Origin: Phycisphaerales bacterium
GTDB taxonomy: Bacteria; Planctomycetota; Phycisphaerae; UBA1845
Reading direction: 5' to 3'
Assembly: GCA_020852275.1 (NCBI GenBank)
Contig: JADZBE010000007.1
Location: 248,001 to 312,000, forward strand
DNA length: 64,000 nucleotides
The position numbers and the translations under genes are program-made. This document shows positions 27,252-40,134 of this stretch, in pieces; within the stretch, counting starts at the first letter, position 1; every line of letters begins with the position of its first letter. The notes under the pieces are model-generated. The model was not told the DNA's origin and ran no database searches. It saw only the letters and a program-made list of their open reading frames with translations.

Positions 27252-28661
27252 TCATTCCGGCAGGTTGAGGCTCACCAGCGCCGGCCGGTCGCTGTGCGCG
27301 TCGGTGTTGTCGGGGGCGGACTCGGCTGAATACTCGACTTCCCACGGTTCGCCTTCCACGCGCCACGCGTGCGGCGTGCGGACGACGCGTCGATAAAGCG
27401 TGTCGCGCTCGATGGGCGTGCAGCCGGCCTCGACGATGAGCCGCTGCAACTTCTCAACCGTCAGCTCCTGATGCGTCGTGCCGCCGCCCTCGCGCTTGGT
27501 GATGTCGTAGTACACCACCGTCCCGTCAATGTCGTCCACGCCCCAGTTCAGCGCGACCTGCGCCAGCTTGGGCGACTGCATGATCCAGAACGCCTTGATG
27601 TGCGGGATGTTGTCGCACACGATCCGGCTGATCGCCAGCGTCTTGAGATCCTCCAGCCCGGTGGGTCCCGGAAGGTGCGAAAGCTGGCTGCCCTCAGGAA
27701 TGAACGACAGGGGAATGACGCAGTTGAAATGCGCGCGGCGGTTTTTCAGGCTCTCGGCCTGGTGTTCACGGAGTTTCATCAGGTGCGTGATGCGCTCCGC
27801 GCGCGTCTCGACGTGTCCGTAGAGCATCGTCGCGTTGGTGAAGATGCCCAGCTCATGCGCCGCGCGATGCACCTCGAACCACTCGGCCTCGCCGACCTTG
27901 GTCTTGAACGTCTCGTTGTGCACGCGATCGTCGAAGATCTCCGCCCCGCCGCCGGGCAGCGATTGCAGCCCGGCCTCGCGGAGCTTTGTGAGGACTTCGG
28001 CGATGGACAGTCGCGGGCGGCTGATGCGCGAAAAGTGGATGATCTCGATGGCGGTGAAGGCTTTGACGTGCAGGTGCGGACAGGCTTGGCGGATGCCGTG
28101 GCAGAGGTCGAGGTAGTAGTCGAACGGCAGCCGCGGATGCAGCCCGCCGACGATGTGCACTTCGGTGGCGCCGTGGGCATAGGCGAGCTTCGCGCGATCA
28201 ACGACGTCGTCCACGGAAAGCTCATAGCCGCGCTCGAAATCGAAGCTGCCATCCTCGGTGGGGCGGCTCCCAGAGGTGGAACGACTCTCCAAGGTGGGGC
28301 GGCCATCCGAAGTGGAACGGCTCTCCGAGGTGGGGCGGCTCTCCGAGCCGCCACCGGTCCGACGGCTCTGTGAGCCGTCGATCGGCCCGCCCTTGGGATA
28401 CGCCCTGAAAAACGAGCAGAACTTGCAGCTCAGCACGCAGTAGTTGGTGTAGTTGATGTGGCGGTTGATGTTGTAAAACGCCGCCCGGCCATGGAGCTTC
28501 TCGCGCACGGCGTTGGCGATCTCGCCCAGCGTATGGATGTCGCGGGATTCGTAGAGGCGCAGCGCCTCGGCAGCGCTGAAGCGTCCATCTAGCGGTGCGT
28601 GCGCCGCGCGGTCCGCAGCGCTAATCGTGGTCGACGCCGTTGCTGTGGCCCTGATTTTCAA
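27252..28661 (-). CDS. mqnE: Aminofutalosine synthase (radical SAM) with repeat-derived insertion
   Basis: MqnE makes aminodeoxyfutalosine from dehypoxanthine futalosine precursor chemistry in the futalosine menaquinone pathway. The radical SAM cluster motif CVLSCKFC follows NRHINYTNY. Also conserved are EVHIVGGLHPRLPFDYYLDL, AFTAIEIIHFSR, LPGGGAEIFDDRVH, LYGHVETRAERITHLMKLRE and FNCVIPLSFIPEGS. About 45 Ser/Arg/Thr-rich residues (SESRPTSESRSTSDGRPTLE region) are inserted after the cluster motif and are encoded by palindromic repeats. The frame continues to a TTG at 28733 inside an intergenic repeat; the TTG at 28661, after AAGGA, is preferred but uncertain. No other futalosine genes lie in the window. 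Confidence 0.92.
   Translation of the reverse strand: MKIRATATASTTISAADRAAHAPLDGRFSAAEALRLYESRDIHTLGEIANAVREKLHGRAAFYNINRHINYTNYCVLSCKFCSFFRAYPKGGPIDGSQSRRTGGGSESRPTSESRSTSDGRPTLESRSTSGSRPTEDGSFDFERGYELSVDDVVDRAKLAYAHGATEVHIVGGLHPRLPFDYYLDLCHGIRQACPHLHVKAFTAIEIIHFSRISRPRLSIAEVLTKLREAGLQSLPGGGAEIFDDRVHNETFKTKVGEAEWFEVHRAAHELGIFTNATMLYGHVETRAERITHLMKLREHQAESLKNRRAHFNCVIPLSFIPEGSQLSHLPGPTGLEDLKTLAISRIVCDNIPHIKAFWIMQSPKLAQVALNWGVDDIDGTVVYYDITKREGGGTTHQELTVEKLQRLIVEAGCTPIERDTLYRRVVRTPHAWRVEGEPWEVEYSAESAPDNTDAHSDRPALVSLNLPE
28245..28390. repeat. Palindrome cluster inside mqnE
   Basis: It contains GGCGGCTC-TCC-GAGCCGCC (28334-28352) and CGACGGCTC-TGT-GAGCCGTCG (28360-28380), both perfect, plus four degenerate relatives of the form GGAACGGCTCTCCGAGGTGG to the left. 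The array keeps the reading frame and produces the low-complexity insertion in MqnE. Confidence 0.8.
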
Positions 28662-28697
28662 GGTGTCCTTGCTCTCCCAAACTGCTCCGCCTTTTTC

Positions 28698-28771
28698 TTC
28701 AGAACCCGTAGCGCCAGCGAGAGAGTCAGCCAAGCACGAGGGATACCCTCGCTCGCGCTACGGGTTCTGAA
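28698..28771. repeat. 74-bp element with perfect 17-bp terminal inverted repeats
   Basis: TTCAGAACCCGTAGCGC at the left end and its exact complement at the right, with a 40-bp centre. Relatives occur at 59061-59136 and, as half units, at about 46434-46512. It sits in the divergent spacer between mqnE and the RDD gene. Confidence 0.78.
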
Positions 28772-29703: not shown

Positions 29704-31098
29704 TCAGCCGCACAGTTCGTCGTAGATACGCATGAGGTCATCGCGGAAGCGCGCTGGACTGAAGCGCGTTTCGGCGACGCGGCGGGCATTCTCGCCACAG
29801 CGCGTGCGCAGGTCCGCGTCGCGGGCAAGGCATTCCATCGCGGCCGCGAGGGCGTGCGGCTCGCGCGGCCCCACGAGCAGGCCCGTGGCCCCGTGCTCAA
29901 CCACTTCGGGCATCGCGCCGACCCGCGTCGCCACGACCGCAAGTCCGTTGGCGAACGCCTCCAGCACGGTGATGGGCATGCCTTCGCTGTGACTGGGTTG
30001 AACCAGCACGTCGGCGCGAGCCAGCAGTCCCGCCTTCTGCCGGCCGCGGACCTCGCCGACGTAGTGCACGACGCGGGTCAGTTGACGGTCGGCGATCTTG
30101 CGGGCGAGCGTGCGGGCGTCCCCGGCGGAGCCCGGCGGACCGGCCAATATCAGCTCGAACGCGGCTCCGCGCGCTTGAAGCTGGACACAGGCGTCCAGTA
30201 GGTCGTCCACACCCTTCCATGCGTCCATCCGGGCGAGCATGAGGAACCCGCAGTCGGCGGCGGGCTGAGTGCCATTTGTGTGGCACGGGTTTTCAACCTG
30301 TGAGGTGTGGCACAGGTTTTCAACCTGTGAGGTGTGGCACAGGTTTTTGACCTGTGCAGCACCCGCGGAAAACTCTGCCGGATCATGCACAGGTTGGAAA
30401 CCTGTGCTACAGACCACCGGTTGGAAACCGGTGCCACACGGCACGGATTGGAAGCCGGGGGCACACTCCACCGGTTGGGAACCGGGTCCACTGACCAAAG
30501 GTTGGAAACCGGTGCCACGCTCGAGCTGCTTGAAACCGGTGCTTCGCTCGGCTGGAAGTTCAACCGCGTTCTCGACCACGCGGACGCTGGCGTGCGGCTC
30601 CGCGCTCAAGATCCAATCCGCCCAGCCCTGCGAGAGCGCGATCACGATGTCCGCGCGCCGCAGCACCCCGCGGATCAGCGACTGCCCCCACGCTTCGCAC
30701 TCGGCATGGAACTCATCAAACCGCGCCCCGTGCAGGTGGAGCACCACGCGGCACCCGAGCCGCCGCGCGAGCCAGGCATCCACCGCGCTGCGCCAGAACG
30801 ACATCCCGCTGCACGTGTGAATGTGCACCAGCCGAACGCCATTCTCCTTGATCGCGGTCTCGATGACCCGCCCCTGCAAGATGTGCCGCGCCACGCGGGC
30901 GAGCCACCGCTCGTGGTTGCTCTTACGCGAAGTGTCCGGCAGCGTCGTGACCGCATACCGCGCCGGCCAGTCGAGCCGCATCATCTGCCCGACCACGGCG
31001 CTCATCCCGCCGGTCATCGCCGGGTCCGGGCCGAGCACCAGCACCGCGCATCGCGTCTGAGTCGCCCGGGAATGAGTTGGTGCGAGAATGGCGGTCAT
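29704..31098 (-). CDS. GT4-family glycosyltransferase with repeat-derived linker
   Basis: A 464-aa GT-B fold glycosyltransferase, probably for extracellular glycan synthesis. The N-domain has the Gly-rich loop PAMTGGMSAVV and HIHTCSGMSFWRS. The C-domain has LARMDAWKGVDDLLDACVQL, AGPPGSAG and the EX7E motif in SHSEGMPITVLEAFANG. The interdomain linker is expanded by about 100 residues (TGFQPLVSGPG ... QVENLCHTSQVENPCHT) encoded by palindromes, an acceptable place because the linker is surface-exposed in this fold. ATG 31098 is preferred; the frame is open to 31170. Confidence 0.88.
   Translation of the reverse strand: MTAILAPTHSRATQTRCAVLVLGPDPAMTGGMSAVVGQMMRLDWPARYAVTTLPDTSRKSNHERWLARVARHILQGRVIETAIKENGVRLVHIHTCSGMSFWRSAVDAWLARRLGCRVVLHLHGARFDEFHAECEAWGQSLIRGVLRRADIVIALSQGWADWILSAEPHASVRVVENAVELPAERSTGFKQLERGTGFQPLVSGPGSQPVECAPGFQSVPCGTGFQPVVCSTGFQPVHDPAEFSAGAAQVKNLCHTSQVENLCHTSQVENPCHTNGTQPAADCGFLMLARMDAWKGVDDLLDACVQLQARGAAFELILAGPPGSAGDARTLARKIADRQLTRVVHYVGEVRGRQKAGLLARADVLVQPSHSEGMPITVLEAFANGLAVVATRVGAMPEVVEHGATGLLVGPREPHALAAAMECLARDADLRTRCGENARRVAETRFSPARFRDDLMRIYDELCG
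30280..30545. repeat. Array of CACAGGTT-NNN-AACCTGTG palindromes in the GT4 gene
   Basis: At least nine units. Examples are CACAGGTT-TTC-AACCTGTG (30311-30329), CACAGGTT-GGA-AACCTGTG (30388-30406) and CACCGGTT-GGA-AACCGGTG (30415-30433). Arms are 8 bp, loops 3 nt, units joined by G(T/A)GGTGTGG or C(T)ACAGAC-type spacers. Compensatory changes (AGG/CCT to CGG/CCG) keep pairing. Confidence 0.85.
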
Positions 31099-31261
31099 GG
31101 CGCTCACGCAAGGGAATGTCCGACGCATCGGACTCATCGGCGGATCCTGCGCTTGACTCCAACAACGCACCGCCGCGTCCCGCCCTGCGGTCTTTGTTTT
31201 CTCCGCGAGCTCCGCGCCTCTGCGTGAGAGATCACCGCGTGCGCGGTGCCGCGCGACACGG

Positions 31262-34549: not shown

Positions 34550-34740
34550 CCTTCCGGGCGAGAACCCGAAACCGGGAATCGGGTTCGTCACCTCCGCACA
34601 GGGGGGGTCCAAGGGGCCCCGGATGACCGCTGGATTCGTGCGTTCTCCCAACTCACCGACTGGATTCCCGCCTGCTCGGCAATGGCGGGCATCGGCTTTC
34701 ACCTCGCTCTTCCGGCCCCACGGCGCCGGATGCGGAATCG

Positions 34741-34852
34741 CACTGCTCGCAGAGCAGTGGCACACGAGCACTGCTCACGGAGCGGTGGCACACGGGCACT
34801 GCTCACAGAGCAGTGGCACACGGGCACTGCTCACGGAGCAGTGGCACACGGG
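34741..34852. repeat. Four tandem 28-bp units, each with a CACTGCTC palindrome
   Basis: CACTGCTC-NNN-GAGCAGTG at 34741, 34769, 34797 and 34825, an exact 28-bp period (loops GCA, ACG, ACA, ACG; one arm mismatch in unit two). The linker is GCACACGGG-like. It sits in the 34550-35055 spacer ahead of the polysaccharide-export gene. The same palindrome recurs after the kinase gene at 39.9-40.05 kb. Confidence 0.85.
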
Positions 34853-35055
34853 CGGACGGACGTGCTTGCAGAGCAGCAGGTGGACACCCCGCAGATCCTG
34901 CGGCCTGGGCGCAGTTTGACTTTCGCTCCGGATTTGAGGATTGTGAGGGATGCCGCCGATACCGCTGGGGCGGGGTGGGGCGGGAGCCGATAAATGAGGC
35001 ATCAGTGTGGGTTTACGCGATCCGCCGGCGGGGGGGACGCCGGCAGGAGAGGTGC

Positions 35056-39930: not shown

Positions 39931-39944
39931 TCACGCACGTGTGC

Positions 39945-40051
39945 CACTGCTCTGTGAGCAGTGTCTGTGTCGGCGTGTGCCACTGCTCTATGAGCAGTGC
40001 ATGTGTGCACGTTGGAACCAGTGCCTGCGTGTCACTGCTCTGTGAGCAGTG
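39945..40051. repeat. Three CACTGCTC palindromes after the kinase gene
   Basis: CACTGCTC-TGT-GAGCAGTG (39945-39963), CACTGCTC-TAT-GAGCAGTG (39981-39999) and CACTGCTC-TGT-GAGCAGTG (40033-40051), all perfect. They are the same family as the 28-bp tandem array upstream of this operon, so the Wza-exosortase-Wzc unit is bracketed by one repeat family. Confidence 0.85.
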
Positions 40052-40134
40052 CGGTATCCCAGTGATCCAAGTTCCTTACGTTGCCATCGATCCGGCGTGA
40101 ACCGGACCCCACTGCCCAGCGCAGTGAGAAGCTT

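Follow-up and report, generated by a model that had tools for sequence, protein, structure and literature searches.

An in-frame REP array in a GT4 glycosyltransferase gene and a likely mobiliser nested within PurH

The linker between the two domains of a GT4-type glycosyltransferase from a Phycisphaerales bacterium carries an in-frame array of short palindromes. We consider it probable (roughly 0.78) that this array comes from a dispersed REP family, which entered in frame and then expanded by 27-nt units, and whose likely mobiliser is a RAYT that the genome carries within its PurH gene. This reading builds on direct observation of the dispersed family with its tags and sharp ends, the empty linker in relatives, the multiple-of-three filter on arrays within genes, the in-frame purH cassette, and the conserved catalytic motifs of the RAYT. 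RAYTs are usually stand-alone genes without clear self-movement, and for this reason the origin and persistence of REPs are open questions. A RAYT locked in frame within an essential gene suggests a route by which such a transposase could avoid loss and secure its expression. Here, we describe the array, the family to which it belongs, and the nested RAYTs of this and related genomes.

The repeat array in the GT4 gene

The analysis started from a 64,000-nt stretch of genomic DNA ("the window"). The gene and the parts of its linker are as follows, with domain coordinates derived from residue numbers.

29704..31170, minus strand: GT4-type glycosyltransferase gene, a 488-aa ORF with a GTG start (the custom gene finder places the start at 31044)
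30556..30900, minus strand: N-terminal GT4 domain (Glyco_transf_4, PF13439), residues 91-205
29779..30246, minus strand: C-terminal Glycos_transf_1 domain (PF00534), residues 309-464
30284, 30311, 30338, 30388, 30415, 30442, 30469, 30496 and 30523: starts of the palindromic units, 19 nt each
30279..30357, plus strand: REP array A, with a TGTGG tag (30279-30283), units at 30284-30302, 30311-30329 and 30338-30356 (27-nt period), and a terminal C at 30357
30358..30386, no strand: 29-nt spacer separating arrays A and B, whose 3' ends point toward each other
30387..30541, minus strand: REP array B, with a 3'-terminal C at 30387, a CACAGG unit (30388-30406), a TGTAG tag (30407-30411), and further units at 30415, 30442, 30469, 30496 and 30523 (27-nt period, with decay growing along the array)

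A preliminary description of this DNA reported an in-frame palindrome array in the linker, and we confirm it: nine in-frame loci of 19 nt with the pattern CACNGGTT-NNN-AACCNGTG lie between the two domains, with start-to-start spacings of 27, 27, 50, 27, 27, 27, 27 and 27 nt. The description overlooked that the loci fall into two oppositely oriented arrays, A (three units) and B (six units), whose 3' ends converge. Because they are read in opposite orientations, the two arrays encode unrelated peptides (TGFQPV versus QVENLCHT). Seven of the nine units match one of two consensus forms at 14–16 of 16 positions. The other two, at 30442 and 30523, match at 12 of 16, a score met at four to nine places per 64 kb of shuffled sequence, and are counted solely by their 27-nt register. 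The number of arm pairs per unit, out of eight, is 7, 8 and 7 in array A and 8, 8, 4, 6, 6 and 4 in array B. Thus, only 5/9 GT4 units keep at least seven pairs, whereas 139/161 units do so in the remaining multi-unit arrays sampled from this genome (Fisher p = 0.03), and the earlier claim of preserved pairing amid sequence variation fails for this gene.

The linker of homologous glycosyltransferases is typically short. Thirty candidate loci yielded 29 above the score cut (L036 was dropped), and 28 distinct sequences once L005, which equals L011 in sequence, was merged with it. By eye, 26 of the 28 have an empty linker of ~15–25 residues, counted from a conserved asparagine-alanine-valine to the next strand, whereas the corresponding linker of the window protein has ~104 residues. 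The two others (from G022 and G008) have longer linkers, the peptides of which are reminiscent of other dispersed repeats. This comparison is at the protein level, the relatives being too distant for an empty site at the DNA level, and what it yields is not the identical unit number across distant relatives that the preliminary description had named as evidence against its view, but the lack of any array in 26 of them. In an AlphaFold2 model built from a two-row alignment (mean pLDDT 57.3, i.e., low overall confidence), residues 200-305 have pLDDT <50 and almost no regular structure, such that the insert is predicted to be unstructured.

A dispersed REP family

The palindrome is found throughout the window's own 5.05-Mb genome (G000), which contains 70 exact CACAGG-type sites. 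We sampled 842 kb, comprising the window and 40 other stretches (33 picked for listed matches, one for a RAYT, and six arbitrary), a choice that biases copy densities upward. The sample holds 202 palindrome copies matching at 12 or more of 14 positions, versus six for a reversed-consensus control. Two sub-types dominate, CACCGG (54 copies) and CACAGG (51 copies), and are one compensated pair apart. The "paired substitutions" noted previously stem from this compensated C-G/A-T change, which distinguishes two sub-types spread across the genome.

The family palindrome, CAC[C/A]GGTT-NNN-AACC[G/T]GTG, is accompanied by GTGG/GTAG tags, has sharp ends, and forms direct tandem arrays. When 43 multi-unit elements were aligned by their ends, TGTGG marked the 5' end (37–41 of 43 elements per position), a C one base past the last palindrome marked the 3' end (38 of 43), and the flanks beyond both ends were near background. 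TGTAG precedes most CACAGG units. The shortest common element consists of TGTGG, a CACCGG hairpin, two bases (NN), TGTAG, a CACAGG hairpin and C; in longer arrays, the inner units are repeated. Written out, this basic element of ~51 nt is TGTGG + hairpin CACCGGTT-NNN-AACCGGTG + NN + TGTAG + hairpin CACAGGTT-NNN-AACCTGTG + C. The family is a GTAG-type REP family, having (i) GTAG/GTGG at the 5' foot; (ii) high copy number, mostly outside genes; (iii) a RAYT flanked by the same REPs.

Across 199 genomes of the phylum, the exact 16-mer AGGTTTCCAACCTGTG matched only the window's own genome, so that searches for exact words detect this family poorly. At 34740-34853 and 39938-40052 of the window, another 8-3-8 palindrome family, CACTGCTC-NNN-GAGCAGTG, forms intergenic tandem arrays; 11 exact copies occur in the 842 kb, none of them in predicted genes.

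REPs inside genes keep the reading frame

Coding sequence, as called with a custom gene finder, makes up 75% of the sampled DNA, and only six to eight of the 43 multi-unit elements are genic. Six arrays are surely genic: one in the GT4 gene, two in PurH, and one each in genes for a zinc dehydrogenase, a TPR protein and a phosphodiesterase-like protein. All 18 same-orientation spacings in these six arrays are multiples of three, compared with 18/84 elsewhere (p = 2 × 10−10), and the prevailing spacing between genes is 26 nt. Scored per array, the frame is kept in 6/6 genic and 5/34 other arrays (p = 1.2 × 10−4); the frame test gives p = 6 × 10−6 when L063:9833 and L066:186 are also counted as genic. 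The exception to the multiple-of-three rule is L063:9833, an array of eight units with 26-nt spacing at the N-terminal end of a predicted gene, the true start of which may lie downstream of the array. From the depletion within genes and the multiple-of-three spacings, we conclude that gene insertions are strongly purged and that surviving arrays keep the frame.

We also considered whether REPs are designed to be free of stop codons in all six frames. This was rejected, as intergenic arrays have 3.8 of six frames open versus 3.3 for shuffled sequence, a small excess. Another frame-keeping repeat within an enzyme lies in the window at 28257-28347, where an 18/36-nt in-frame tandem repeat (SESRPTSESRST...) is part of the gene at 27252-28733 (minus strand), labelled radical-SAM-like by reading rather than by HMM.

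A RAYT nested in PurH of the same genome

The gene for PurH in G000 contains a REP–RAYT cassette.

L056:11428-14082, minus strand: PurH with nested RAYT, 884 aa in one frame

The layout is REP, RAYT, inverted REP, with two family arrays of opposite orientation, all in frame. Homology to the PurH structure 3zzm breaks at chain residue 274 and picks up at 277. The RAYT domain (NF047646, residues 331-459) scores 73.7 bits against a curated cut-off of 80; other nested RAYTs exceed the cut-off, with 87.9 bits for that in LeuRS of G000 and 83.8 bits for that in PurH of G287. G000 has eight RAYT/Y1 loci, seven found with NF047646 and one more with PF01797. Only one of the eight, the PurH-RAYT, has family REPs within ~1.5 kb, and it has them on both sides, inverted.

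The same PurH has a further insertion at residues ~745-825, with the repeat peptide SLPDGRGSDASARSGAHGLPEPLPDGRGSVASARTEVR; a similar SARTEVR stretch occurs in the glycosyltransferase linker of G008. The nested RAYT in LeuRS of G000 (L077:6018-9881, minus strand) is also in frame and has seven 39-nt repeats (QVGDTDLRDVPVP) ahead of it. The LeuRS insertion falls between residues 236 and 243 of 1h3n.

Nested RAYTs across the order and phylum

Searching 114 genomes of the order with the PurH-RAYT of G000 found 48 matches, spread over 35 genomes; of these matches, 41 lie in open frames at least 465 residues long. The hosts are as follows.

PurH: 19/114 genomes of the order (12 called by NCBIfam, seven by sequence and PurH matches on the same contig)
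IleRS, two sites: nine genomes by HMM, and G302 by reading
LeuRS: G000 and G003
GcvP: three genomes
RarA-like ATPase: G044
CcrM-like methyltransferase proteins: two genomes
ValRS: G432 and G416, outside the order

The IleRS label on the first RAYT ORF of L240 (G267) and on that of L193 (G302) is based on reading together with the tree rather than on an HMM, and the assignments leave out the RAYTs of G032, G288, G053, G280, G027, G289, G272 and G020 and the second match of G287. In a phylum-wide draw of 392 genomes, 63 had RAYT matches, some in long frames but many in frames of ordinary RAYT length; nesting is therefore not universal among relatives of the PurH-RAYT.

Where both sides are present, the PurH site is at approximately profile position 266-285 of 510, and hairpins lie on both sides of the PurH-RAYT in 18/19 genomes, the remaining one (G028) being cut by a contig end. 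Hosts resume just ahead of conserved motifs, i.e., FIKHTNACG in most PurH, SLLVWTTTPWT or HVMGEDGLKMSKR in IleRS, and LRVFTTRPDT in LeuRS, which we take to be catalytic or editing motifs. Among the matches listed, each RAYT-bearing genome with complete frames has a single PurH locus. The catalytic motifs are mostly intact: of 45 RAYT rows that are not stand-alone, 43 have the HUH motif [DN]HxH and 41 the tyrosine motif Y[ILVMF]xxNP. The exceptions are L192 (contig end), L240b (a decayed or shifted copy), L230 (EHVH), and three with the tyrosine but an altered NP.

In a tree of 88 RAYT/Y1 domains, 46 rows fall into one group (support 99/95), consisting of 45 with a nested position or unknown host and one stand-alone. 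Within the limits of few alignment columns, the RAYT tree is loyal to host, with IleRS rows in one group (93/96) and nine changes of host label versus 41 for shuffled labels. Forcing the nine f1 rows into one clade is rejected for both the RAYT (p = 8 × 10−7) and the host part (p = 0.012). The RAYT and PurH trees may reflect either vertical descent or re-entry.

Nine more genomes (G273, G277, G278, G260, G042, G046, G059, G049 and G264) have long PurH frames of 706–957 aa with no RAYT match at E ≤ 1e-10; their homology is mostly broken near the same site (at 230 in G049), and they perhaps hold diverged or emptied cassettes. After the stand-alone Y1/RAYT genes at L120 and L129 (G023 and G047), palindromes specific to each gene are arrayed in tandem with a regular 72-nt period.

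Co-occurrence of REPs and the PurH-RAYT

PurH-RAYTs occur in 11/21 genomes of the order with at least 20 REP matches, versus 8/93 others (p = 2 × 10−5, with genomes treated as independent despite kinship). In most of the eight REP-poor genomes with a PurH-RAYT, the flanking hairpins have a different sequence. Correspondingly, a CACCGGC variant is abundant in three of the four genomes whose PurH-RAYT is so flanked, versus 4/110 others (p = 6 × 10−4, kinship ignored). No PurH-RAYT was detected at E ≤ 1e-10 in ten of the 21 REP-rich genomes (G294, G301, G271, G303, G024, G295, G032, G034, G268 and G272), of which G301 is a single contig; either REPs are able to survive in its absence or a different RAYT takes its place. 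In genus mates of G000, there are zero to four REP matches and no PurH-RAYT.

A simple link of REPs to any Y1 transposase was rejected, since PF01797 is present in 109/114 genomes, both with and without REPs. The five genomes without PF01797 have no REP copies, which is weak evidence. Stand-alone Y1 genes mostly have other palindromes nearby; the exceptions, L099 and L100, have family-like copies within 1 kb.

Origin of the array and alternative explanations

We suggest that one or two REP doublets entered the GT4 linker with the frame kept, and that the units then multiplied by local duplication in 27-nt steps and are now decaying. The likely mobilising agent would be the RAYT inside PurH, cutting and moving REPs of the family; by analogy with TnpA-REP, it may cleave single-stranded hairpins at the tags. 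The preliminary description had treated the unit as a hairpin element of the DNA that some amplification process spreads, as opposed to a designed peptide, and our data support that view. It had also proposed selection on the hairpins themselves, here taken to mean that an array of mRNA or DNA hairpins regulating the GT4 gene is under local selection. Five of the nine units do form strong hairpins, and the array is retained in frame. However, the palindrome is dispersed genome-wide, the GT4 units are more decayed than those elsewhere, 26/28 homologues lack the array, and no Rfam family matches it. Decay and dispersal led us to discard local selection as a candidate, and its probability is very small. 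Slighter still is the chance of a protein-level adaptation, in which a selected repeat peptide (TGFQPVxxx) lengthens the linker: the in-frame 27-nt period does give a regular nonapeptide, and linkers are also longer in G022 and G008, but the oppositely oriented sub-arrays give unrelated peptides, the same DNA occurs between genes and in four other kinds of gene (PurH, zinc dehydrogenase, TPR, phosphodiesterase-like), and the insert is predicted to be disordered.

The most serious alternative, though an unlikely one, is that another transposase (a stand-alone or since lost RAYT) moved the REPs, with the PurH-RAYT a passenger that collected them. The REP-rich genomes in which no PurH-RAYT was detected, and the further RAYT/Y1 loci of G000, are consistent with this idea. 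It accords poorly with the lack of family REPs within ~1.5 kb of any of those seven other loci, with the different palindromes near most stand-alone Y1 genes (L099 and L100 excepted), and with the hairpins that flank the PurH-RAYT on both sides wherever the contig does not end. A further question is whether the nested cassettes are excised by an intein or intron, such that the enzymes are made without them. The sites, just before conserved motifs, do resemble those of inteins. Nonetheless, no intein family appears in the NCBIfam matches listed for the scanned hosts or in the Pfam matches of PurH and LeuRS, Rfam has no match at purH, and reading frames are open throughout the nested cassettes in complete cases. 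Excision is therefore improbable, and the PurH-RAYT is presumably translated with its host as one unspliced polypeptide.

Extending the proposed origin of the GT4 array by REP insertion, we see an even chance that a clade of RAYTs lives permanently in the frames of essential enzymes (PurH, IleRS, LeuRS, ValRS and GcvP) beside conserved motifs. Such a RAYT would be an unspliced counterpart of an intein, co-translated with its host, difficult to lose since only a precise removal would do, and emitting translatable REP hairpins like those in GT4. If so, a RAYT that entered the same site anew in separate lineages would be showing a kind of homing. Repeat peptides in such proteins should not be taken as functional linkers.

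Comparison with known systems

Rickettsia palindromic elements (RPEs) are palindromes found in frame in many unrelated genes. The family described here shares that property but differs in sequence and phylum, and we know of no RPE with a nested transposase. Inteins and IStrons place the enzyme of a mobile element inside conserved host genes, near conserved motifs. Unlike these, the nested RAYTs have no splicing domain or intron that we could find, and the inserted part apparently remains in the protein.

The closest relatives are GTAG-type REPs. In the accessible part of PMC3733652, such repeats are reported from Planctomycetes and Verrucomicrobia, most O. terrae GTAG-20 copies carry a GTGG foot, and some GTAG-type REPs lie inside ORFs, in clusters encoding up to 43–82 residues. 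The present family resembles them in its short palindrome, GTAG/GTGG foot, high copy number, and ORF inserts. As far as that text describes them, it differs in having direct doublets of two different hairpins, defined ends, and 26/27-nt tandem arrays, and in that the cognate RAYT is itself nested in a host enzyme.

GTAG/GTGG at the foot of the hairpin is a hallmark of REP elements (PMC3733652 and PMC8266576, each in the portions available), and for TnpA-REP the tetranucleotide is described as helping to choose the cleavage site (PMC8266576, likewise in part). The sections available of PMC8266576 and PMC6006769 also describe tnpAREP genes of subclass 2.4 that contain in-frame REPs. Intragenic REPs are thus already known, whereas an in-frame RAYT nested in an essential enzyme was not found in print; our literature search, which covered partial texts, returned no RAYT in frame inside any enzyme. 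A 2018 survey, in the part of its text available, regarded proteins of unexpected length as fusions or annotation errors and discarded them (PMC6006769). Length filters and family cut-offs hide nested RAYTs. Like TnpA-REP/RAYT systems and REPtrons, as presented in the portions consulted of PMC8266576 and PMC6006769, the system described here places an HUH-Y1 transposase beside REPs with GT[AG]G feet; unlike them, it has the transposase in frame inside PurH, IleRS, LeuRS, GcvP or ValRS.
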